From the IMG/VR virus record IMGVR_UViG_3300032316_000255, positions 1-31,005 of that record: a stretch of 31,005 bases of DNA; one strand, written 5' to 3'. The notes below the pieces were generated by a model. The model had not been told where the DNA came from, did not search any database, and saw nothing but the letters and a program-made list of their open reading frames with translations. Both the position numbers and the translations under genes were made by a program. Source of the stretch: a virus. Within the stretch, counting starts at the first letter, position 1. Every line of letters begins with the position of its first letter. Below, in pieces: positions 7,818 through 30,570 of this stretch.

Positions 7818-9443
7818 ATGGATCCGTTCACATTAGCACTTTTAGGCGGCACGGCGTTAGCGTCCGGCGGCCTTAACTATGCCGGATCTAGGGCCGCTGC
7901 GGGCGCTCAAGGCGGTGCGGCCTCTACTAGCGGTATGTTGGGATTTATTGCTCAACAGCAAGCGCGTGAAGAAGCACGCCGAATGGCCGAGAAAGGCGCT
8001 GAAGCGGGCCGTGAATTTTACGGCATGGGTTCCGCTGACGTAAAAGATTTTTATGGTAGAGGCACTAAAGCCCTAGAAGATTATTATGGTAAGGGCTCAC
8101 AGGTCTTAGAAGATTATTATGGCAAGGGCACTAAGTCCTTAGAAGATTATTATGGCAAAGGCACCGCCGACATAAAAGATTTCTACGGTAAAGGCGCGCA
8201 GGTCTTAGAAGATTATTATGGTAGAGGCGCTAAATCCTTAGAAGATTATTATGGTAAAGGCACTAAAGCCTTAGAAGACTATTATGGTCGCGGGCGCGAA
8301 GATGTTTTAGGCCAAGCTCAACGCGGCGAAGATATTGGCCGCGAATTTTACGGCCAAGGCGTAGCGGCTCAACAGCCTTACACAACCGCAGGCACGGCGG
8401 CTACTAATCAATTAGCTATGCTACTTGGCGCTGGAGTTGCACCGGCGGGCGGCGATTTTGGCGTTCAAGGCGCACCCGATAGCTTTGGCTCATATGCTCG
8501 TCAGCCGACGCTCGCTGAACTCCAAATGGATCCTGGCTATGAATTTCGGCGTCAAGAGGGCGAGAAAGCCTTACAACGCTCTATAGCTGCGGGCATTGGT
8601 GGTCAAAGCCGTGGTGGTGGCGGTCTTAAAGCGATGGCTGATTATAGCCAAGGGCTTGCCAGCCAAGAATACGGTAACGCCTATAACCGTTTTATGGCGA
8701 ATCGTGAAGCTGCCATGCGAGGTCTTCAGAATCTTGCTGGCACAGGTGCAAACGCAGCGGGCACTGTGTCAAATTTAGCGGGTAGTATAGGCAATGCGCT
8801 TGCCGGTAATCGCTTTAACACAGGCGCTAATTTAGGTAGCGCAGCCACAACGACAGGCGGTAATATTGGATCTGGCGCGTTTAATACTGGCGCTAATTTA
8901 GGAAGCGCAGCTACAACGACAGGTGGTAATATAGGATCTGGCGCTTTTAATGCTGGGGCGAATTTAGGTAACGCCGCTATGACAACGGGCGCTAACTTAG
9001 GTAATGCCGCTATGACAACGGGCGGTAATATTGGATCTGGCGCGTTTAATACCGGCGCTAATATAGGTTCGGCGGCTACAACGGCAGGGGCTAACCTTGG
9101 TAATCTTGCGTCTAACGCTGGCGGCACGGTCGCTGGCGCTTACACAGGCGCAATTCCTACATTGGCTGGTCTTACATCAGCTAATCCATATGGTGCGGGT
9201 ATGGAAAACGCTGCGGCAGCGCGCGCGTCTGGTTATGTGGGTGGCACCACAGCGCTTGGAAATGCTCTCAACAGCGGCATGGGTAATGCGCTGGCGTATA
9301 ATATGATGAACAATATGTATCCAGGGACAGCTAACAGGAATAATTTTTCCGGCGTAGGGTATGCTATGGGCGCGCCGACCTATGCCCCAGGGTTTACGCC
9401 TGGGTTTGGCGGGGCACCTACTTACGGCGCACCAAGATTTTAA
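7818..9443 (+). CDS. Ejection (internal virion) protein with two 11-residue repeat arrays
   Basis: This 541-residue protein occupies the position of P22 gp7, the first of three ejection proteins. Residues 1-45 are a small hydrophobic and Gly/Ala segment. Residues 65-163 are nine exact 11-residue units of type EDYYGKGTKAL, a hendecad pattern suited to an amphipathic right-handed coiled coil. Residues 230-310 hold a helical domain (AELQMDPGYEFRRQEGEKAL, then RFMANREAAMRGLQNL) that is common in phage internal proteins. Residues 336-434 are nine units of type GANLGSAATTT, small-residue repeats able to insert in or line a membrane. The C-terminus is Gly/Tyr/Pro-rich. It would be packaged in the head and leave with the DNA to help it cross the cell envelope. 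The function is inferred from order and composition. AGAGGC precedes the ATG. Confidence 0.72.
   Translation: MDPFTLALLGGTALASGGLNYAGSRAAAGAQGGAASTSGMLGFIAQQQAREEARRMAEKGAEAGREFYGMGSADVKDFYGRGTKALEDYYGKGSQVLEDYYGKGTKSLEDYYGKGTADIKDFYGKGAQVLEDYYGRGAKSLEDYYGKGTKALEDYYGRGREDVLGQAQRGEDIGREFYGQGVAAQQPYTTAGTAATNQLAMLLGAGVAPAGGDFGVQGAPDSFGSYARQPTLAELQMDPGYEFRRQEGEKALQRSIAAGIGGQSRGGGGLKAMADYSQGLASQEYGNAYNRFMANREAAMRGLQNLAGTGANAAGTVSNLAGSIGNALAGNRFNTGANLGSAATTTGGNIGSGAFNTGANLGSAATTTGGNIGSGAFNAGANLGNAAMTTGANLGNAAMTTGGNIGSGAFNTGANIGSAATTAGANLGNLASNAGGTVAGAYTGAIPTLAGLTSANPYGAGMENAAAARASGYVGGTTALGNALNSGMGNALAYNMMNNMYPGTANRNNFSGVGYAMGAPTYAPGFTPGFGGAPTYGAPRF
8010..8306 (+). repeat. Nine 33-base units encoding an 11-residue hendecad
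   Basis: Nine in-frame 33-base units encode (E/K)D(Y/F)YG(K/R)G-type 11-mers without insertion or deletion. Third positions differ between units (GGTAAG, GGCAAG, GGTAAA, GGTAGA), so selection on the protein pattern is likely. Confidence 0.9.
8823..9119 (+). repeat. Nine 33-base units encoding a second 11-residue repeat
   Basis: Nine in-frame units alternate GANLGSAATTT-like and GGNIGSGAFNT-like 11-mers, giving a 22-residue superperiod in part. Some DNA copies are nearly identical, so slippage or recombination here is possible. Confidence 0.9.
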
Positions 9444-16938: not shown

Positions 16939-18045
16939 ATGCACTCGGATATAGTCGGCGGTTCCACAGCGAAGCGCGTAATGAACTGCCCTGGCTCAGT
17001 TAAGCTGGCGCAATCCGTTCCCCCAAGACCATCATCAAAATATGCAGAGGAAGGATCACTGTTACATGACGCAATGGACAAGATCCTCTCTCACAGTGCA
17101 TCTCCTGATGATTTCGGTCTTGGCGATGATCTCATTGAGCGTAAACTACGCCCTGCCCTTGACGCGCTGAATGAGATTGATCCTGACACACAGATGGAAT
17201 TTCAGACTGAAGTTTCCGTCTCTTTCGGAGGGTATCTAGCTGGCGTATTCGGATCCTGTGACCTCATTGGTCGTATTGGCAATCGTGCAATTGTTCTCGA
17301 TTGGAAGTTTGGTGATGGGGTGGCGGTGGATGCTGTCGAGAACCATCAGCTTATGTTTTATGCCGCTGCGGCTATGCGGACTGATGACGTCCGTTGGGCG
17401 TTCGAGGGCGTTACTGAAATAGAGTGTGTCATTGTCCAGCCGCCATATGTCAAGCGTTGGCTTACAACGCCTGGGCGCGTTAAGGCGTTTGAGCGTGAGC
17501 TGTATGATGCTGTAACGGTAGCATTGCGGCCTAATGCGCCTGTGGCGCTTGGCGATCATTGCAAGTGGTGCCCTGCTAAACCTATTTGCCCTGCAATGAC
17601 GGGCGAGACAGAGCGCGCGCTAAAGACTAAACTCAACAGTATAACGCCAGAGGGCTACGGCAATGCGCTTATTATCGCTGACCGCGTTGAAGAGTGGGCT
17701 AAAGAAATACGCAGCATGGCGCAGCAAGCGCTTGAGAACGGTATCGCCATCCCAGGATTTAAACTTGTGCCAAAGCGTCCGACCCGTCAGTGGGTCAACG
17801 ACGAAGGCGCACTGGAAGCTCTTAGAGAAATGGGACTTGAGCTTGATGAATTAACAGAGACGAAGTTAAGATCGCCAGCGCAGTTAGAGAAGGTGTTGAA
17901 GAAACACAAGCTCGAACTGCCGAAAGATCACGTCGTCGCTGTTTCAACGGGTAACACGATTGCGCCGGAGTCAGATCCGCGTCCAGCCGTGTTGCAACTC
18001 GGTAAGCACATCCGTGCTGCCACACTTAAACTACAGGTGAAGTAA
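16939..18045 (+). CDS. DUF2800 protein, Cas4/AddB-like PD-(D/E)xK nuclease
   Basis: This is a 368-residue protein. The GSTAKRVMNCPGSVKL opening, AEEGSLLHDAM (His43), FGSCDLIG (Asp108), AIVLDWKFGDG (Asp121, Lys123) and NHQLMFYA (Gln137) give the RecB-type nuclease order H-D-(D)xK-Q. Cys17 together with Cys208, Cys211 and Cys217 (HCKWCPAKPICPA) reproduces the one-plus-three Cys iron-sulfur arrangement of Cas4 and AddB. DUF2800 genes head many phage replication modules, normally followed by an SSB-like gene and a family A polymerase, exactly as here. It probably trims DNA ends for replication or recombination. It is the first gene after the promoter at 16885, and its TAA overlaps the next ATG (TAATG). 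Confidence 0.88.
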   Translation: MHSDIVGGSTAKRVMNCPGSVKLAQSVPPRPSSKYAEEGSLLHDAMDKILSHSASPDDFGLGDDLIERKLRPALDALNEIDPDTQMEFQTEVSVSFGGYLAGVFGSCDLIGRIGNRAIVLDWKFGDGVAVDAVENHQLMFYAAAAMRTDDVRWAFEGVTEIECVIVQPPYVKRWLTTPGRVKAFERELYDAVTVALRPNAPVALGDHCKWCPAKPICPAMTGETERALKTKLNSITPEGYGNALIIADRVEEWAKEIRSMAQQALENGIAIPGFKLVPKRPTRQWVNDEGALEALREMGLELDELTETKLRSPAQLEKVLKKHKLELPKDHVVAVSTGNTIAPESDPRPAVLQLGKHIRAATLKLQVK

Positions 18046-22132: not shown

Positions 22133-22857
22133 TCGCGGTATGGTTTTCATGTGGTGCAGCTAGTGCAGTTGCCGCTAAATTAGCATTAGAAAAGTATTCT
22201 GATGTTCGCGTGATAAATAATCCAGTGGCTGAAGAGGACGAAGACAATCGCCGCTTCTTGCGTGACGTTGAGGCGTGGCTTGGAGTTAAGATTGAAAGCG
22301 CCGTTAATCCTAAATATCCTACGTCGTCAGCTTATGACGTGTGGGCGCATCGCAATTACATGTCCGGCGTGAGCGGTGCTGTTTGCACAGTAGAATTAAA
22401 GAAGCGTGCGCGACAAATTTGGGAACAAACAAACAAAGCCGAATGGCATGTGCTTGGCTTTACTGTTGATGAAAAACATAGGTTTAATAGGTTTGTTTTA
22501 ACTGAACGCGATAACGTTTTACCTGTTTTAATTGACGCCGGATTAACAAAACAAGATTGTTTAGATCGCATCGTAGCCGCTGGCATAAAGCCGCCGCGCG
22601 TTTATGGTCTTGGCTTTCCTAATGCTAATTGCATTGGCTGCGTAAAAGCAACGTCGCCGACATATTGGAATCTTGTCCGTCGCACACATCCAGAAGCGTT
22701 TCAACAGCGCGCCGAACAATCGAGGGGGCTCGGCGTAAAATTGGTGCGGTATAAAAACAAACGCATTTATCTTGACGAGCTTCCATCGGATGCAAAAGGA
22801 AGACCGATAGCAAAAATGCAAATTGACTGCGGTATATTTTGTGAGGAAAGAATATGA
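22129..22857 (+). CDS. PAPS-reductase-like PP-loop protein
   Basis: This is a 242-residue protein from the ATG that overlaps the polymerase stop (ATGA). IAVWFSCGAASAVAAKLALE is a PP-loop-like segment in which the usual SGGxDS reads SCGAAS. CTVELKKRARQIWE, HVLGFTVDEKHRFNRF and GLTKQDCLDRI are further landmarks of adenine-nucleotide alpha hydrolase-type phage proteins annotated as PAPS reductase. Four C-terminal Cys (NCIGC at about 185 and CGIFC near the end) could hold zinc or an iron-sulfur cluster, as in RNA- or DNA-thiolating enzymes. The reaction is unknown: sulfate reduction, nucleic-acid modification and a defence-related role are all open. The fixed position between polymerase and primase suggests a DNA-linked job. 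Confidence 0.78.
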   Translation: MIAVWFSCGAASAVAAKLALEKYSDVRVINNPVAEEDEDNRRFLRDVEAWLGVKIESAVNPKYPTSSAYDVWAHRNYMSGVSGAVCTVELKKRARQIWEQTNKAEWHVLGFTVDEKHRFNRFVLTERDNVLPVLIDAGLTKQDCLDRIVAAGIKPPRVYGLGFPNANCIGCVKATSPTYWNLVRRTHPEAFQQRAEQSRGLGVKLVRYKNKRIYLDELPSDAKGRPIAKMQIDCGIFCEERI

Positions 22858-25226
22858 CTTTCGTTGATTTTCTTAAAAGCCTTGCATTTGATGGCGAGAC
22901 AGCGCTGTTTGTTAAACAAGTATTAAAGAAGCGTGACGGTCAAATTTATTATTTTCCTGACGGAACGCCCGATTCAACTTATCCTGCTTACTTACCAGAA
23001 CAGGCGCGCATACGCGAAGGCGATGCGTGGTATGGCAATACGGGCTGTTACATCTTAGAGCGTTTCACTGACGGTAAAGTTAGCGCATCAGCCGCTAATT
23101 GTGATTACGTTCTTGTTATGATGCTAGATGATATTGGATCGTTGAAAGATTACGGTCAACTAAAGATACCGCCGTTAGAACCTACGTGGAAGATGGAAAC
23201 AAGCGAAGGTTCTATTCAGTGGGGCTATGCTTTTAACCCAGATAATCAACCAACGACGAATGAGTTCAGCGCAGCGATTAACGCCATACGTGACGCGCTC
23301 TACACTGACAAGGGCGCGGTCAATCCCGTGCGTAACTTTCGTCTCCCTGGCAGCGTAAACTTTAAGCGCGGGCGTAACAACTTTGCGGCTAAATTGCTTG
23401 AGTTTCATCCAGACCGTTTGTTCTCACTCGACCAGATCTGCACCGCTCTTGATGTAACGCCAGGAGAGGCGAACACAGCGCGCGGGCACCACATACGCAT
23501 TAAAGATACCGGCGGTGATAATGTCACAGCGTGGCTGAACGAGAACAACCTTATCTTGTCCAGCAATAACAATGAAGGCTGGCGCAGCGTTATCTGTCCT
23601 AATCATGCAGAGCACAGCGAAGGATTAGAAGGCCGCTATCAGTCATCGACTCGATCATATTTTTGTTTTCACGGTCATTGCATAGATAAGATCGACAGCA
23701 ATTATTTTTTAAAATGGGTTGCTGACAATGGTGGGCCGCAAGAGAAGCAAGGTTTGCGGAGTGAACTGCTAACAGATCTCGGTAAGAAGGTTCGCGCTAA
23801 CATAGAACCAACTGCGGCGTTCCCAGATGATGCTAAAGCGCGTCAGACTGAAGCTGAAATCTTAACTGCAAAAGTAGAAGATCGCGGTAAATGGTTTAAA
23901 GAGTGGGCGTATGTTGTAACTGATGATGGTTATTTTAATTTAGTTAATCGTCGTGAGGTTTCGCGGCCATCTTTTAACGCGATTTTTCGTGGCACTAAAT
24001 GCGTGTCGATACATACTAATCGTCGCATCGAAGCGTCAACATATTTTGATGAAAACCGTGAAGCGTCAGGGGGCGAACTTGTCAATGAGATCACTTACGC
24101 AGCGGGTGAGAAGGCGCTTGTTACGCGCGATGGTCTTATCTATGGCAATAAATGGATTAACGCGCGCCCAGAGATCAAACACTCAACAACAAGCATAGAT
24201 CGTTGGTTGAAGCATTGTGAGACGCTTGTGCCAACAGACTTTGAGCGCGAGCATATCTTCGACATGATGGCGTTCAAGTTACAACATCCAGAGCTTAAAA
24301 TTAATCACGCGGTGTTGCATGGCGGCGATGAAGGCGCTGGCAAAGATCTTATGTGGGCACCGTTCATATGGAGCATCTGCGGCCCGTTCCAGCGCAACTA
24401 CGGTTTGATTAAGAATGAGTTGATTAACAATCAGTGGGGCTATCTTTTAGAAAGCGAGATCGTTGTCCTTAACGAGCTGAAGGAAGGCGAGGCCGTCGAG
24501 CGCCGCGCGTTGGCTAACCAACTAAAGCCGCTTATCGCTGCGCCGCCGGATCTTATCTCGATCAACCGTAAGGGCTTGCATCCGTATTATATGCTTAACC
24601 GTCTATTCGTCCTGGCGTTCACCAACCATCGCCTACCGATCACGCTTGAGTCGTCCGACCGTCGCTGGTTCTGCATATGGTCAACGTCGCCGCGTATGAA
24701 TAGTGAGGACGGCGCGGAAATGGCCGCTTGGTATCAGAAGGAAGGCTTTAACGCTATCGCTGGCTGGCTGCACGACCGCAATGTGGCTAAGTTTAATCCT
24801 GGCATGTTCCCACCTCTGACGGACTACAAGCGTTCGCTCATCGAGAGCGGCATGTCTATCGCTGAGAGTTACATCTTAGACGCGATCAATAACCAGAAGC
24901 ACCCGTTTACGCGGCGCGTTATCGGTAGCCCGTTCCATAAGATCTGCCAAGAGTTATCCAAGGATGATGACGCGCCGTTTACCAAGATGAAGATCCCGCC
25001 AGCGGCGCTATTTCAGGCGCTCAAAGAAGCCAAATGGATTGACTGTGGTTCTGTTGGCACAAAAGAGCATCAGACCAAGAAGCACATGTTCTGCGCGCCT
25101 GATATGTTGGATCAGTTTACTAAAACTGAACTGCGTAACATGCTCGAAAATACGGTGAAAACAAATGTTAAGACTGAAGATTCTAATGTTATCCCTATTG
25201 ATAAGTCTGTGCCTAAGTGGATGTGA
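22854..25226 (+). CDS. Primase-polymerase / superfamily 3-like helicase fusion
   Basis: This is a 790-residue protein. The N-terminal part carries VLVMMLDDIG (Asp92-Asp93), WKMETSEGSIQWGYAF (about 112-127) and RLPGSVNFKRG (162-172), the layout of archaeo-eukaryotic-type primases in phages and plasmids. A zinc-binding-like module follows (ICPNHAEH at 246-253, YFCFHGHC at 268-275). The C-terminal ATPase has Walker A GGDEGAGKD (Lys496), Walker B EIVVLNEL (534-541) and sensor VLAFTNHR (Asn590), as in D5/DUF5906 helicases. It should prime and unwind DNA at the fork. GAGGAAAG precedes the ATG, which overlaps the previous stop (ATGA). It is the last large gene of the operon. Confidence 0.9.
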   Translation: MTFVDFLKSLAFDGETALFVKQVLKKRDGQIYYFPDGTPDSTYPAYLPEQARIREGDAWYGNTGCYILERFTDGKVSASAANCDYVLVMMLDDIGSLKDYGQLKIPPLEPTWKMETSEGSIQWGYAFNPDNQPTTNEFSAAINAIRDALYTDKGAVNPVRNFRLPGSVNFKRGRNNFAAKLLEFHPDRLFSLDQICTALDVTPGEANTARGHHIRIKDTGGDNVTAWLNENNLILSSNNNEGWRSVICPNHAEHSEGLEGRYQSSTRSYFCFHGHCIDKIDSNYFLKWVADNGGPQEKQGLRSELLTDLGKKVRANIEPTAAFPDDAKARQTEAEILTAKVEDRGKWFKEWAYVVTDDGYFNLVNRREVSRPSFNAIFRGTKCVSIHTNRRIEASTYFDENREASGGELVNEITYAAGEKALVTRDGLIYGNKWINARPEIKHSTTSIDRWLKHCETLVPTDFEREHIFDMMAFKLQHPELKINHAVLHGGDEGAGKDLMWAPFIWSICGPFQRNYGLIKNELINNQWGYLLESEIVVLNELKEGEAVERRALANQLKPLIAAPPDLISINRKGLHPYYMLNRLFVLAFTNHRLPITLESSDRRWFCIWSTSPRMNSEDGAEMAAWYQKEGFNAIAGWLHDRNVAKFNPGMFPPLTDYKRSLIESGMSIAESYILDAINNQKHPFTRRVIGSPFHKICQELSKDDDAPFTKMKIPPAALFQALKEAKWIDCGSVGTKEHQTKKHMFCAPDMLDQFTKTELRNMLENTVKTNVKTEDSNVIPIDKSVPKWM

Positions 25227-26057: not shown

Positions 26058-26384
26058 TCAATTAGCACCGTTACTAGCACCGTCAGCGCGCTTTGTTCTT
26101 TTGTACTGTGTCCCATTTAGTCTCGCCTCCCAACATCTAACACCATAAATGACCGTCGAATGATCGCGCTTGAATATGCGCGCCAGCTTTAGATAGCTTG
26201 AGTGTGTCTCATGCCGCGCGCGATACATAGCTTTCTGACGCGCCTGGACGAACTTGGGCTTGTTCTTGTGGGCGATGATGTCCGACGGGAATATGAGAAA
26301 CTCATCGGCCACTTCAGCTATTATCTCGCGCACGAACACGTCACCCTCTCGTTCGGTTGTCTCATCCCACCATGCGGAGCGCAT
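26058..26384 (-). CDS. DnaA domain IV-like DNA-binding protein (no ATPase)
   Basis: This is a 108-residue protein. After the helical REIIAEVADEFLIFPSDIIA comes FVQARQKAMYRARHETHSSY followed by LKLARIFKRDHSTVIYGVRC. This matches the C-terminal DnaA-box-binding domain: ARxRQxAMYLAR-type helix, then the signature helix RDHSTVIYG, equivalent to RDHTTVLHA in bacterial DnaA. The AAA+ domain is absent. It could bind DnaA boxes, either to mark the phage origin or to interfere with host initiation. It is the last clear gene of the leftward operon and overlaps its upstream HTH gene by 23 bases. The domain call is firm; the role is inference. Confidence 0.82.
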   Translation of the reverse strand: MRSAWWDETTEREGDVFVREIIAEVADEFLIFPSDIIAHKNKPKFVQARQKAMYRARHETHSSYLKLARIFKRDHSTVIYGVRCWEARLNGTQYKRTKRADGASNGAN

Positions 26385-27209: not shown

Positions 27210-27481
27210 CACGCCGCCTCTTCATCGCTGTATTCGTCGATCATGTGTTGCGCTATCTCGCGCCAATTAACATCATCCAGAAACGCAAAAGCGTAATCGC
27301 GCGCGACGCCTTCGCTGCTATTGGATACGATTATCTCTTCCGCATAATCTTTGAGGGTTTGCCCTAAATCATAGGCGTCTTCATGCGCGCCTTGCCAATA
27401 GTCGCGCGGGTTAAACCCGTCGAATATCTCTAAGTTTACGCGCCATGTGGCGTAGTTAGTCCAGCCGTTATAATCGCTCAT
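27209..27481 (-). CDS. Conserved small phage protein with YNGWTNYATW motif
   Basis: This is a 90-residue protein: MSDYNGWTNYATWRVNLEIF, then DGFNPRDYWQGAHEDAYDLG and FLDDVNWREIAQHMIDEYSD. The YNGWTNYxTWxVNL opening followed by a W/I-A-xHMIDE end is widely shared by small phage and plasmid proteins (DUF7249-type), often near antirestriction or early genes. The activity is unknown to me. AGGAGA precedes the ATG, and directly upstream lies the leader TGTAATAAATCCACAC that is also found before the gene at 27853. The next gene is coupled by TGATG. Confidence 0.75.
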   Translation of the reverse strand: MSDYNGWTNYATWRVNLEIFDGFNPRDYWQGAHEDAYDLGQTLKDYAEEIIVSNSSEGVARDYAFAFLDDVNWREIAQHMIDEYSDEEAA

Positions 27482-27500
27482 TGTGTTGTCTCCTGTGTGG

Positions 27501-27510
27501 ATTTATTACA
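27501..27510 (-). promoter_or_regulatory. Shared leader motif TGTAATAAAT
   Basis: The minus strand reads TGTAATAAATCCACACAGGAGA just before the gene at 27481. The same 10-mer plus CCACA and ribosome-binding site lies before the gene at 27853, and the 10-mer is inside the replication-operon promoter at 16895-16904. Confidence 0.45.
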
Positions 27511-27690
27511 TTAACTTCCTTGAACGGCATCGCCGCACTCTTTAACAAACGCATCAGCCGCGCGTTTGCATTCGGTTATAAAATCTTCGTCATTGATTGG
27601 TGAAACAATAGCCATACGCGCCAATATGCAGCGCGCCACCCATTCATTGTCGATCTCAAGAATATTCATCACATCTTCTACTAATAGCAT
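27511..27690 (-). CDS. Small hypothetical protein (59 aa)
   Basis: The frame reads MLLVEDVMNILEIDNEWVAR, then CILARMAIVSPINDEDFITE and CKRAADAFVKECGDAV. It is helical, with three Cys and no known motif. It begins one base after the preceding stop with GGGAGC about 8 bases upstream. Its composition is protein-like throughout, and it fills the space between two other small genes without gaps, supporting it as a real member of the leftward operon. Confidence 0.55.
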   Translation of the reverse strand: MLLVEDVMNILEIDNEWVARCILARMAIVSPINDEDFITECKRAADAFVKECGDAVQGS

Positions 27691-27691
27691 A

Positions 27692-27853
27692 TTACGCTCC
27701 CGCTAGTTTGCGCGCTATCGCAAGCGCTTCGTTCTCTTTGGCCGTGCGCTTCGCCGGATCTTTGCGCGCCGCGCGCACGACCAACAATTTAAACGCGCGC
27801 GTCTCTTTGACTTGCTTTGTCTCTGTCTCTAGTTTTTCAAACCATGTCGCCAT
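27692..27853 (-). CDS. Tiny basic helical protein (53 aa)
   Basis: The frame reads MATWFEKLETETKQVKETRA, then FKLLVVRAARKDPAKRTAKE and NEALAIARKLAGA. It is basic and helical, and could bind nucleic acid. AGGAGA lies 8 bases upstream of the ATG, preceded by the shared leader TGTAATAAATCCACAG. It has no named family. The opposing open frame on the plus strand here is a shadow without a ribosome-binding site. Confidence 0.55.
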   Translation of the reverse strand: MATWFEKLETETKQVKETRAFKLLVVRAARKDPAKRTAKENEALAIARKLAGA

Positions 27854-27871
27854 CGCTATTTTCTCCTGTGG

Positions 27872-27881
27872 ATTTATTACA
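27872..27881 (-). promoter_or_regulatory. Shared leader motif TGTAATAAAT, second copy
   Basis: The minus strand reads TGTAATAAATCCACAGGAGA 20 bases before the start at 27853. TAATAA could act as a -10 box, with ATAACA 17 bases upstream as a weak -35. Alternatively the motif is a regulator site. An ACTACCCTAA origin-type repeat (27885-27894) lies 3 bases away. Confidence 0.45.
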
Positions 27882-27911
27882 CAAACTACCCTAAATTGTT
27901 ATGTTGATTTG

Positions 27912-28013
27912 TTATGCGTAGCAAAAATATAGCACCGCCAGCGCCATCATCGGGACAAATAACGTCGCGGCAATGGTAAAAACGATAGTTTCGATGATCT
28001 GAATGGTTCGCAT
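27912..28013 (-). CDS. Tiny membrane protein (33 aa), first leftward gene
   Basis: The frame reads MRTIQIIETIVFTIAATLFV, then PMMALAVLYFCYA. Almost the whole peptide is one hydrophobic span with a short basic start, so it should sit in the inner membrane. AGGAGC stands 7 bases before the ATG, a good site that supports translation. It is the first gene after the non-coding region. Small early membrane peptides of phages can affect superinfection or membrane energetics; no specific role can be assigned. Confidence 0.55.
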   Translation of the reverse strand: MRTIQIIETIVFTIAATLFVPMMALAVLYFCYA

Positions 28014-28034
28014 GTGATTTGCTCCTGGTTGATG

Positions 28035-28068
28035 ATTGACTTTTCCACAATTGGATGATTTTGTCAAT
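28035..28068 (-). promoter_or_regulatory. Candidate early leftward promoter with inverted repeat
   Basis: On the minus strand a perfect -35 TTGACA (28067-28062) is followed after 17 bases by the weak -10 AAAAGT. The -35 lies in one arm of an inverted repeat, ATTGAC (28035-28040) and GTCAAT (28063-28068). TTTTCCACA (28041-28049), which fits the relaxed DnaA-box consensus TTWTNCACA, sits between the arms. The weak -10 suggests an activator or an imperfect call. Confidence 0.45.
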
Positions 28069-28491
28069 AACTTTTTTACAAGGGCGTTATTTAGGGTAAT
28101 CGAAAGGTAGTGAAAAGGTATAGGTTAGGGCGGTTTTTGGGTGTAACGTAACGCGCTGAATTGGCAGGGGTTTAGCTTGTTTTAGGGTAGTTAGGGTAAT
28201 TGATAAACCTTTATTAGAATTTTATGTAATAGTCTATAAGATTAGTATATTAACTTTATAATACAGTAGGTAGGACTGCGAAAACGATTGCCCTAATTAC
28301 CCTACGCCCGTTATATCGCGTTAAATCAGTTGTTTAGGAAGCAAAAGCGATTGCCTTTGCACTACCCTACGAAACTACCCTATTTTTGCCCTAGCCGCCC
28401 CGCCGACGCAAACTTGCAAACTTCCCCTGGGAAGTCCCCAGTGATGCGGTTGCGACTTGAAATGCGATTGCCCTAATTGCCCTAAACTAAA

Positions 28492-28540
28492 TGTCTACTT
28501 AGTTTATGTAAACGTAATTGTAGACTGGAGATTGTAGACA
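28492..28540. promoter_or_regulatory. GTAGAC repeats upstream of the terminase genes
   Basis: TGTCTAC (28492-28498) is inverted relative to two direct copies of ATTGTAGAC (28517-28525 and 28531-28539). The reverse complement GTCTACAAT also overlaps the start codon of the replication operon (16932-16940). A shared operator is possible. Confidence 0.35.
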
Positions 28541-28557
28541 GGGGGACTGGGCCTTGC

Positions 28558-28610
28558 GCAGTCTGGGAATATCTACGCAGGGACTGCACAAACTTTTTTA
28601 TTTTTTATTT
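28558..28610 (+). terminator. Weak hairpin plus T-rich tract before the small terminase gene
   Basis: GCAGTC (28558-28563) and GACTGC (28582-28587) can pair across an 18-base loop. They are followed by ACAAACTTTTTTATTTTTTATTTTT. This could stop rightward transcripts from the origin region. The T-rich run may also be the upstream part of a late promoter. Confidence 0.35.
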
Positions 28611-28615
28611 TTGTG

Positions 28616-28624
28616 TGCTATAAA
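28616..28624 (+). promoter_or_regulatory. Extended -10 element before the small terminase gene
   Basis: TGCTATAAA is an extended -10 box (TGnTATAAT type). Transcription would start at about 28631-28632, essentially at the ATG, giving a leaderless mRNA. No -35 box is evident; the upstream sequence is T-rich. Confidence 0.4.
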
Positions 28625-28631
28625 ACTTTTT

Positions 28632-29177
28632 ATGGCTTTCTATGCAGATGGTGGCTTTAGTTCCATCCCCCATGAGCCGCGCGAAATACGGGCAACCGAA
28701 GCACGGCTAGAAAAGATTTACGAAGCCGCTAAACGCGGACTCAAAGGCGACGCACTGGCGTTAGCTTCTGGGATGCTGCCGACTGAGTATCGGCGGTTAA
28801 TACAGCTCGACCCGATAGCGGAGTATGCAGAGATCAAAGGCCGCGCTGAAGGTGAGATGGAAATGGCTGATGTGTTGCGTAATGCGGCTATAGCTGGCGA
28901 CACCAAAGCGGCGTTAGATGTGCTAAAGCATGTTCACAACTGGGTAGCCAAACAGGCTGTCAGCGTAGAGGTTAACCAGACGATCAGCATCACGGCGGCG
29001 CTACAAGAAGCGCAACAGCGCGTGATTGAAGGGCAGATCATAGATGCAAACGACTATATACAGCCCGGAGGAAGAACAGCGTTTGATGGCGACGCTGTGG
29101 AATCCAGCGCTGAAAAACGACCCGCTGGCCTTCGTCAGATTAGCGTTCCCGTGGAAGAAACCGAATACGCCCCTTGA
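28632..29177 (+). CDS. Small terminase subunit
   Basis: This is a 181-residue protein from the ATG at 28632 (MAFYADGGFSSIPHEPREIR). The open frame starts 26 codons earlier at a TTG, but that part is hydrophobic and includes the T-rich promoter-like sequence, so I reject it. Residues 20-60 (EARLEKIYEAAKRGLKGDAL, then SGMLPTEYRRLIQLDP) look like the DNA-binding helix-turn-helix of small terminases. Residues 65-125 (KGRAEGEMEMADVLRNAAIA, then GDTKAALDVLKHV) form the oligomerisation helices. It would bind the packaging site and regulate the large subunit. The large terminase gene starts inside its 3' end, with a 134-base overlap in another frame. No ribosome-binding site is seen upstream. Confidence 0.82.
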   Translation: MAFYADGGFSSIPHEPREIRATEARLEKIYEAAKRGLKGDALALASGMLPTEYRRLIQLDPIAEYAEIKGRAEGEMEMADVLRNAAIAGDTKAALDVLKHVHNWVAKQAVSVEVNQTISITAALQEAQQRVIEGQIIDANDYIQPGGRTAFDGDAVESSAEKRPAGLRQISVPVEETEYAP

Positions 29178-30570
29178 GCACTTCGAGGGGCCGCGTAAAT
29201 GGCAGCGGGAAATTCTGACAGAATTACGCGAGCACATCAAAGCAAACAACGGCAAGATAGACTTTGAGACGCTGCGGATGGCGGTGTCATCGGGGCGCGG
29301 AATTGGTAAGTCTGCCCTCGTTAGCTGGCTGACGATCTGGATGCTGACCACGCGGATCGGCTCAACGACCATTGTGTCGGCTAACTCCGAAGCGCAGCTC
29401 CGTAGCGTCACTTGGGCTGAGATCACCAAGTGGTTGAGTATGTCGATACACAGTCACTGGTTCGAGGTATCCGCAACGCGAGTGCTACCGGCGAAGTGGA
29501 TAGCGGAGCTGGTCGAACGAGATCTGAAAATGGGAACACGCTATTGGGGCGTAGAAGGGCGGTTGTGGAGTGCAGAGAATCCTGACGCATATGCTGGCGT
29601 GCACAACTTCGCGGGTGTCATGCTGGTATTCGATGAGGCGAGCGGAATTGATGATAGTATCTGGTCAGTTGCAGCGGGCTTTTTTACGGAAAATACCCCT
29701 AATCGCTTTTGGTTGTGCTTCAGCAACCCCCGTCGTAACTCTGGTTACTTTTATGAGTGTTTTAACTCCAAGCGAGACTTTTGGCGAAATAAAATTGTCG
29801 ATGCCAGATCTGTCGAAGGCACGGATAAAGCCGTCTACCAACAGATCATTGACGAGTATGGCCCCGACTCAAGCGCAGCCCACGTCGAGGTCTACGGTCA
29901 GTTCCCCAACGCCAGCGACGACCAGTTCATCGGAAACGCGTTGGTTGACGAGGCAATGGAACGTCCCGCTATATCCGACCAGTCCGCGCCCATCGTGGTC
30001 GGAGTGGATCCAGCACGCTTTGGTGCCGACGCTACCGTAATAGCGATACGGCAGGGCCGCGACATACTGAGCATCCGACGACACCGTGGCGACGACACGA
30101 TGGAAGTCGTGGGCCGCGTGATCGACGTGATCGAAGAGTATAAGCCTGCGCTGGTCGTGATCGACGAGGGCGGACTCGGCGCAGGCGTCGTGGATCGGCT
30201 GAAGGAACAGCGCTACAAGGTGCGAGGCGTAAACTTCGGCAACAAGTCAACGAAGCCCATGATGTATGGCAACAAACGCGCAGAGATGTGGGGCGCGATG
30301 AAGGACTGGCTGAAAGACGCCTCCATACCGAAGGACAGGTATCTAAAGTCAGACCTGATCGGGCCTATGATGAAGCCCGACAGTAAGGGAACGATATTCT
30401 TAGAGTCTAAGAAAGATATGAAGTCGCGAGGTCTGGCCTCCCCAGACGCAGCGGATGCTATAGCGGTGACGTTCGCATTTCCTGTCGCCAGACGCGAGCA
30501 ACGAGTAGACAACCAGCGCCGCGTCAGCTATGGTCAAGGCTCCGCATCGTCTGGATGGATGGCTTCATAA
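29044..30570 (+). CDS. Large terminase subunit (packaging ATPase/nuclease)
   Basis: This is a 508-residue protein. The ATPase half has Walker A SSGRGIGKSAL (Lys89), Walker B VMLVFDEAS (Asp197, Glu198) and the coupling segment FWLCFSNPRRNSGYF. The nuclease half has the RNase H-like acidic residues GVDPARFGAD (Asp322), VVIDEGGLG (Asp374) and ASPDAADAIAVTFA (Asp468, Asp471). All catalytic residues are present. It would cut concatemers and pump DNA into the procapsid. The opening (MATLWNPALKNDPLAFVRLAFPW) is typical of this terminase group. The ATG at 29044 gives a 134-base overlap with the small subunit. A later start is possible but would lose conserved residues soon after. Its TAA overlaps the next ATG (TAATG). 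Confidence 0.95.
   Translation: MQTTIYSPEEEQRLMATLWNPALKNDPLAFVRLAFPWKKPNTPLEHFEGPRKWQREILTELREHIKANNGKIDFETLRMAVSSGRGIGKSALVSWLTIWMLTTRIGSTTIVSANSEAQLRSVTWAEITKWLSMSIHSHWFEVSATRVLPAKWIAELVERDLKMGTRYWGVEGRLWSAENPDAYAGVHNFAGVMLVFDEASGIDDSIWSVAAGFFTENTPNRFWLCFSNPRRNSGYFYECFNSKRDFWRNKIVDARSVEGTDKAVYQQIIDEYGPDSSAAHVEVYGQFPNASDDQFIGNALVDEAMERPAISDQSAPIVVGVDPARFGADATVIAIRQGRDILSIRRHRGDDTMEVVGRVIDVIEEYKPALVVIDEGGLGAGVVDRLKEQRYKVRGVNFGNKSTKPMMYGNKRAEMWGAMKDWLKDASIPKDRYLKSDLIGPMMKPDSKGTIFLESKKDMKSRGLASPDAADAIAVTFAFPVARREQRVDNQRRVSYGQGSASSGWMAS

Follow-up and report, generated by a model that had tools for sequence, protein, structure and literature searches.

The stretch of DNA analysed here, referred to as the window, is a virus record of 31,005 bases that carries P22-like structural genes, and the sequence most similar to it is MW202483, a 38.8-kb circular podovirus from Manatee Spring. 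The site of interest is the gap that separates a leftward operon of small genes from the terminase genes, which point rightward; the genes for the small subunit (terS, 28632-29177, plus strand) and the large subunit (terL, 29044-30570, plus strand) are its right-hand landmarks. A primase-helicase gene (22854-25226, plus strand) is found 2.8 kb from the site with the leftward operon in between, and a 108-aa protein corresponding to an orphan DnaA domain IV is encoded at 26058-26384 on the minus strand (PF08299, Bac_DnaA_C, E 4.5e-17). Elsewhere in the window, a 541-aa gene (7818-9443) contains 33-bp coding repeats at 8051-8307, which give a repeated DYYGKG-type peptide and are followed by glycine-rich repeats.

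Opposed repeats around an A+T-rich core

Between 28091 and 28485 there are eleven 10-mers of the TTAGGGYAAT type on either side of an A+T-rich core: the four to its left are on the plus strand and the seven to its right on the minus strand. All four left copies therefore point right and all seven right copies point left. The left arm consists of TTAGGGTAAT at 28091-28100, a weak copy with one mismatch at 28125-28134 (TTAGGGCGGT), and the pair TTAGGGTAGTTAGGGTAAT at 28182-28200, in which the copies at 28182 (TTAGGGTAGT) and 28191 (TTAGGGTAAT) follow each other with a period of 9 bp. This pair is identical or nearly so in four relatives (L010, L088, L089 and L090). The core at 28204-28263 has 51 A/T in 60 positions, making it the most A+T-rich 60-mer of the window, and is the presumed melting region. 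The right arm, written as reverse complement, begins with a pair at 28287-28305 (TTAGGGCAAT at 28287 and GTAGGGTAAT at 28296), continues with three copies at 28361-28394 (GTAGGGTAGT at 28361, ATAGGGTAGT at 28374 and, with two mismatches, CTAGGGCAAA at 28385), and ends with TTAGGGCAAT twice at 28467-28485 (28467 and 28476), a pair that is part of a 31-nt direct repeat of 28274-28304. The 9-bp distance is shared by all three tight pairs (28182/28191, 28287/28296 and 28467/28476).

This concentration of repeats clearly exceeds chance. When up to two mismatches to TTAGGGYART were allowed, 11 sites were found inside the region, whereas 1000 Markov shuffles of it averaged 2.2 and never exceeded 8. 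Under a limit of one mismatch the region has 10 copies and the remainder of the 31 kb has two, at 27358 and 27885, on the minus strand in both cases and just left of the site; the second of these is an outlying perfect iteron (TTAGGGTAGT, 27885-27894) that is also present in L010. A strand-aware detector of opposed arrays gave the window a score of 10, whereas the highest score among its five shuffles was 4. An Rfam scan of 27400-29100 found no family.

A preliminary description of this DNA had listed the repeat copies and an A/T-rich core between opposed arms, and the sequence check recovered the core and every copy named. Its reading of the right copies as CCCTAA is literally true for some of them, but others have CCCTA followed by C, T or G. 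The description had also pointed to a telomere-like TTAGGG core as something special. However, telomere repeats would be head-to-tail TTAGGG tandems at the end of a molecule, whereas the copies here are internal, dispersed and in 9-bp pairs, and the word is not conserved. TTAGGG as a conserved feature was rejected, as it is missing from most relatives; only this phage and its closest relatives use it, and a special TTAGGG core is thus not supported. Cumulative GC skew, which had been suggested as a check, does flip at the site, but it tracks gene strand and flips again at 14-16.5 kb, so it is uninformative on replication.

Between the arrays and terS, two further features were observed. Palindromic GTTTACATAAAC / GTTTACGTAAAC and GTAGAC-type repeats form a second repeat family (window 28500-28545), which is abundant in L005 and L007 at about 400-1300 bp upstream of TerL. 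Right before terS is a block at 28538-28610 (GGGGGACTGGGCCTTGCG...GGGAATATCTACGCAGGGACTGCACAAACTTTTTT) that was matched in 20 loci, some of them with different iterons, and a pac site or a late control element is a possible identity for it.

The array in related phages

Relatives were collected with a TerL search, which gave at least 80 loci, and with a primase-helicase search, which gave at least 80 matches that were mostly new. Apart from three, the loci compared are metagenomic contigs. Motif consensus calls were automatic and sometimes shifted in register; L005, L016, L029 and L162, in which the calls took other repeats (GTTTAC or GC-rich coding words), were dropped from the statistics, as were L100 and L144 likewise.

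The motif search in related phages that the preliminary description had proposed gave a divided answer. TTAGGG is usually missing at 79-98% TerL identity, but an equivalent opposed array is in the same place. Opposed arrays around an A+T core were found in the same divergent gap upstream of the terminase genes across the 119 loci analysed, where the mean detector score was 8.3; dinucleotide shuffles had a mean of 3.1, and stretches taken from elsewhere in these loci had one of 2.9. A score of at least 7 was reached by 71% of these loci, by 0 of 595 shuffles and by 0 of 168 control stretches. In the window the arrays sit 150-550 bp upstream of terS, and the distance from the end of the presumed initiator gene, that of the primase-helicase, to TerL is 2.5-7.5 kb in relatives.

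The word itself differs among these phages (TTAGGGTAA, TTTGGGTCA, TGTGGACAA, TGTGAGTCA, TTTAGGCTA and others). The left-arm word TTAGGGTAAT is shared by the window, L010, L088 and L089, while further left-arm words include TTTGGGTCAT, TGTGGACAAT, TGTGAGTCAT, TTTGGTCAT, TTTGGGTTGT, TTTAGGCTAT, GTTAGGCGGT, CTAGGTCAT, TTCGGCAGT, TGTAGGCAAT, ATAGTCATG, ATCGTCATG and ATTGGCAAT. Different words nevertheless share the same spacings: 9-bp pairs, a core of about 90-115 bp (e.g. about 108 bp), then 44, 19-20 and 48 bp. All five members of the group to which the window belongs keep the left pair TTTAGGGTARTTAGGGTAA, and most keep a CGATTGCCCTAATTRCCCTA block, while the intervening sequence has drifted. 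The arms are not strictly opposed everywhere, as the right side of some relatives also holds copies in the other orientation.

Some loci depart from the common spacing or the common repeats. A homing-endonuclease-like gene lies between origin and TerL in L005 (10712-11158) and shifts the spacing, and other extra sequence in the equivalent gap does the same in L029 and L027. In the more distant Phage DSL-LC05 (L006), this gap contains palindromic repeats of the TGACCCACTGGGTCA type (about 780-1140 bp upstream of TerL), and the left operon includes a repressor-like gene; the logic of its control or of its origin may be different.

Turnover of the motif among phages is typical of repressor/operator groups, and the site does lie between divergent operons. 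The arrays could on these grounds be operators through which a repressor or activator acts on the promoters from which the left (minus) and right (plus) operons diverge, and the repressor gene in DSL-LC05 would fit such a role. However, a promoter scan of the region, covering the sigma-70-like type only, found 0 compared to 2.4 expected by chance, no regulator gene family was found to be common to all loci, and the covariation described below is with the primase-helicase wing. Operators are therefore considered a very unlikely explanation of the arrays.

A second alternative comes from the gene content of the window. The preliminary description had noted a relaxed DnaA box at 28041 (TTTTCCACA) and a DnaA-domain-IV protein as a possible binding partner, and the arrays might accordingly be variant DnaA boxes for this orphan protein or for host DnaA. 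A true Bac_DnaA_C gene is indeed nearby, and words of class TGTGGACAA are one base off a backwards DnaA box (TTGTCCACA vs TTATCCACA) with a few copies being perfect boxes. The box at 28041 is present, but TTWTNCACA occurs three times in the window compared to about two by chance, and one relaxed box does not make the DnaA-box cluster of an oriC-like origin, the TGTGGACAA class being merely similar. The DnaA-domain gene was found in only 17 of 49 related records, while the 32 without it, several of them 34-37 kb long, have arrays. Where the gene is present, its divergence is also unrelated to iteron similarity (Mantel r=0.08, p=0.18), that is, the boxes do not follow the protein. A DnaA role is unsupported because of this combination of absence and lack of covariation, and it is regarded as highly improbable. 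The orphan protein may imitate or compete with host DnaA. In phages without the DnaA domain, a conserved small protein (cluster 7) was considered as a candidate binder and rejected, as by eye it is not DNA-binding and it is not universal.

The primase-helicase and covariation with the repeat word

The primase-helicase is the sole candidate binder present in every locus with enough sequence. It combines an AEP-type primase-polymerase, an SF3/D5-type helicase and a C-terminal winged helix, as judged from Pfam (DUF5906, E 8e-10), a PDB sequence match to the NrS-1 primase (E 0.0016) and matches of the predicted fold. The closest fold is the C-terminal region of the NrS-1 protein (6k9c, E 7e-13); others are poxvirus D5/E5, the ASFV primpol, SaPI PriRep1, the SaPI5 primase-helicase (7pds/7ola) and S-2L PrimPol, the last of which matches the N-terminal AEP domain. 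The element thus encodes its own fused primase and SF3/D5-type helicase. Between these two domains is a conserved set of Cys and His residues (C248, H254, C271, H273, H275 and C276; codons 248-276, window 23595-23685) that is probably zinc-binding.

The C-terminal domain (codons 641-763, 24774-25142) was modelled with AlphaFold2 at a mean pLDDT of 84 and a pTM of 0.73. Models of both the full protein and the C-terminal part alone have the order H-E-H-H-E-wing-E, and a Foldseek search with the C-terminal model returned mostly winged-helix proteins, although the matches were weak (best E 0.13). On these models the domain is a predicted winged-helix DNA-binding domain. Its wing (codons 728-748, 25035-25097) contains DCGSVGTKEHQTKKHMF, and changes in it follow changes of the iteron.

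In a comparison of 49 distinct loci, iterons were more alike where the primase-helicases were more identical (Mantel r=0.27, p=0.001), and this remained so after controlling for TerL and TerS (partial r=0.21, p=0.004). These whole-protein Mantel correlations are modest (r about 0.2-0.3). For TerS there was no covariation with the iterons in the same 49 loci once primase-helicase and TerL were accounted for (r=0.03, p=0.30). This result bears on whether the arrays are pac sites that the terminase small subunit recognises. In P22-like phages pac is near terS, and the arrays here are close upstream of that gene. However, the sites do not change with TerS, and the block right before terS at 28538-28610 is a better pac candidate, making this the explanation with the least to recommend it.

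In a sliding-window scan of the whole primase-helicase using all pairs of loci, no segment reached family-wise significance and the wing did not stand out. The best segments were 205-260, and a weak signal at 191-300 was lost on correction; the segment around the Cys/His set gave the best all-pairs covariation with the iterons, which was not significant. The wing signal emerges among close pairs only. When primase-helicases 3-15% apart were compared, wing divergence was 3.16 times the protein mean in 78 pairs with different iterons compared to 1.16 times in 93 pairs with the same iterons (within-cluster permutation p=0.002, the lowest possible with 500 permutations). In the tail (749-766) the effect had the same sign but was weaker, in the helicase domain it was nominally significant but tiny (0.03), and other large domains did not have the pattern of the wing. 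Individual pairs illustrate this. L094 and L141 have identical TerL, primase-helicases that are 94% identical, and different words, and 12 of their 43 primase-helicase differences are inside the 21-residue wing. L133 and L150 are near-identical outside the C-terminal domain, and both wing and word differ.

The close pairs also speak to the possibility that the iterons are mainly single-stranded priming sites of the primase domain rather than double-stranded sites of the wing. According to PMC8718748, the NrS-1 polymerase requires TTTGGTTA or GTGG/GTGA in the template to start DNA. In addition, TTTGGTTAT is found in the arms of L009, and the orientation of the arms would give outward synthesis. 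However, it is in the C-terminal wing that residues follow the word, divergence of the primase domain is lower when iterons differ (0.75 vs 1.00), and the weak all-pairs signal at 191-300 did not survive correction. Priming as the main function of the iterons is therefore given very little credence, and binding by the wing is preferred.

Within the wing, single residues tend to go with particular bases of the word. Arg737 is present in 28 of 75 loci, and a word beginning with TGT and then two purines was called in 26 of these 28 compared to 0 of the 47 others (Fisher p=4e-18, a value that overstates the evidence because the loci are related). The two exceptions are out-of-register consensus calls, for which the detector gives TGTGGACA (L132) and GTTAGTCA plus ATGTTAGT (L151). 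On a tree built without the C-terminal domain, with the traits of L132 and L151 entered as corrected, each of the two traits switches seven times, with agreement in all seven independent pairs (p=0.016). In a later set of 58 distinct new loci, chosen non-randomly as relatives of L131 and L151 near the switch points, related to each other and with automatic word registers, the rule held for 24 of 28 loci with Arg737 compared to 0 of 30 others; three of the four discordant loci have TGTT or TGTN words, and the fourth (L261) keeps the G only partly. In the same set Lys735 was found with TGTG[AG] in 24 of 25 loci compared to 0 of 33. The tree test and the later set are the safer figures. Gly735, the residue of the window, goes with TAGG words in 11 of 11 loci compared to roughly 8 of 64 others.

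Word changes track the wing of the primase-helicase, and not TerS or the orphan DnaA-domain protein. Contacts of arginine or lysine to guanine are ordinary protein-DNA chemistry, and direct reading of the iteron by the wing is therefore the simplest inference from these sequence comparisons. The covariation likewise suggests that the C-terminal domain sets iteron specificity.

A candidate replication origin and its known counterparts

Taken together, the data suggest that the region is a replication origin and that the phage primase-helicase reads its iterons as double-stranded DNA, using the wing of the C-terminal winged helix; we give this reading a probability of roughly 85%. The site is very probably where this freshwater phage starts DNA copying. 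The preliminary description had proposed opposed iterons around a melting region as a candidate phage origin and had named the primase-helicase among proteins to be tried for binding. The first proposal is strengthened by the conservation of array and layout in relatives, and the second by the covariation of wing and word. In the mechanism envisaged, the primase-helicase would bind both arms via the wing and assemble into SF3 helicase rings, the A+T-rich core at 28204-28263 would melt, the helicase would move outward, and the primase domain would start DNA in both directions. If the iterons were also templates, the orientation of the arms would give outward leading strands. Autoregulation by the primase-helicase may be a second role of the arrays.

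A broader reading, which is conceivable but which we hold only tentatively, joins three elements for this large family of aquatic phages: an origin word under diversifying selection, a simple wing code (735, 737 and neighbours) and many mutually exclusive origin groups. The code would pair Arg737 with G at the second base, Lys735 with G at the fourth, and Gly735 with TAGG words. The purpose of such diversification is perhaps escape from satellites, co-infecting relatives or origin-aimed nucleases, and if the reading is true, origin groups would be exclusive in the way that repressor immunity groups are. It is an old question how initiator and origin switch specificity together without loss of replication. 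Here there are well over 100 related origins in which the words differ but the layout is shared, and wing residues and bases are linked nearly one to one, so the recognition code is directly testable with short purified domains. From sequence alone, it also becomes possible to locate the origin in many uncultured phages and to name its binding partner.

The architecture is already known, because the origins of P4 and the SaPIs are built alike, and the two iteron sets flanking an A+T-rich region in the window fit this type. The apparent novelty lies in how far the iterons have turned over and in the residue-to-base code. In the literature consulted, mostly non-subscription papers, no report was found of twelve or more iteron words sharing one layout within a family, or of a wing-residue code for iterons.

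The SaPIbov1 origin, as reportedly described by Ubeda et al. in 2012, has two iteron sets flanking an A+T-rich stretch. The SaPI5 Rep is a fused AEP primase and helicase like the window protein, which matches its fold (7pds/7ola). In SaPI Rep / PriRep1 and SCCmec Cch2, the initiator helicase reads short repeats via its C-terminal domain (PMC7581432). However, SaPI and SCC origins are directly behind the helicase gene, whereas that of the window is 2.8 kb away, between divergent operons and beside terS. The window element is also a full phage with its own DNA polymerase A, and the iteron words differ. In the alpha protein of phage P4, which has primase and helicase in one protein as in the window, a winged-helix domain binds the origin repeats (PMC4234260). 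The type-1 repeats of P4 (GGTGAACA) are grouped 9-11 bp apart, much like TGTGGACAAT here, and its ori is 2.1 kb from alpha, so gene adjacency is no requirement there. P4 differs in its primase, which is of the Toprim type rather than AEP, in having a second essential site (crr), and in ori repeats that are not symmetric around an A+T core.

The closest solved fold is that of the primase-polymerase of the Nitratiruptor phage NrS-1. In its genome (L087, AB746912), opposed GGTTACACTTT / AAAGTGTAACC repeats at 17061-17270, immediately after the primase gene, surround an A+T-rich stretch. Where two of these repeats meet, they form the priming word TTTGGTTA (17198, minus strand), which has one exact copy in AB746912, while PMC7102993 speaks of two. 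The NrS-1 enzyme thus primes inside an iteron array, and by analogy the iterons of the window may double as template sites for the primase. An iteron role of the NrS-1 array is not reported in the available portions of two NrS-1 papers. The NrS-1 array differs in adjoining the gene and in its repeats being 12 bp apart, and the Head and Tail domains of the C-terminal region were described as new folds.

Joint change of initiator and iterons has a precedent in the PLE satellites of Vibrio, where the DNA-binding domain of RepA and the iterons change together in two groups and an iteron-aimed nuclease is thought to drive the change (PMC8263062). Origin-specificity groups in the phages described here could similarly shape co-infection and satellite parasitism, as for PLE origins. 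The differences are that RepA is an unrelated protein of the RepA_N family and that PLE has two origin groups, compared to a dozen or more here.
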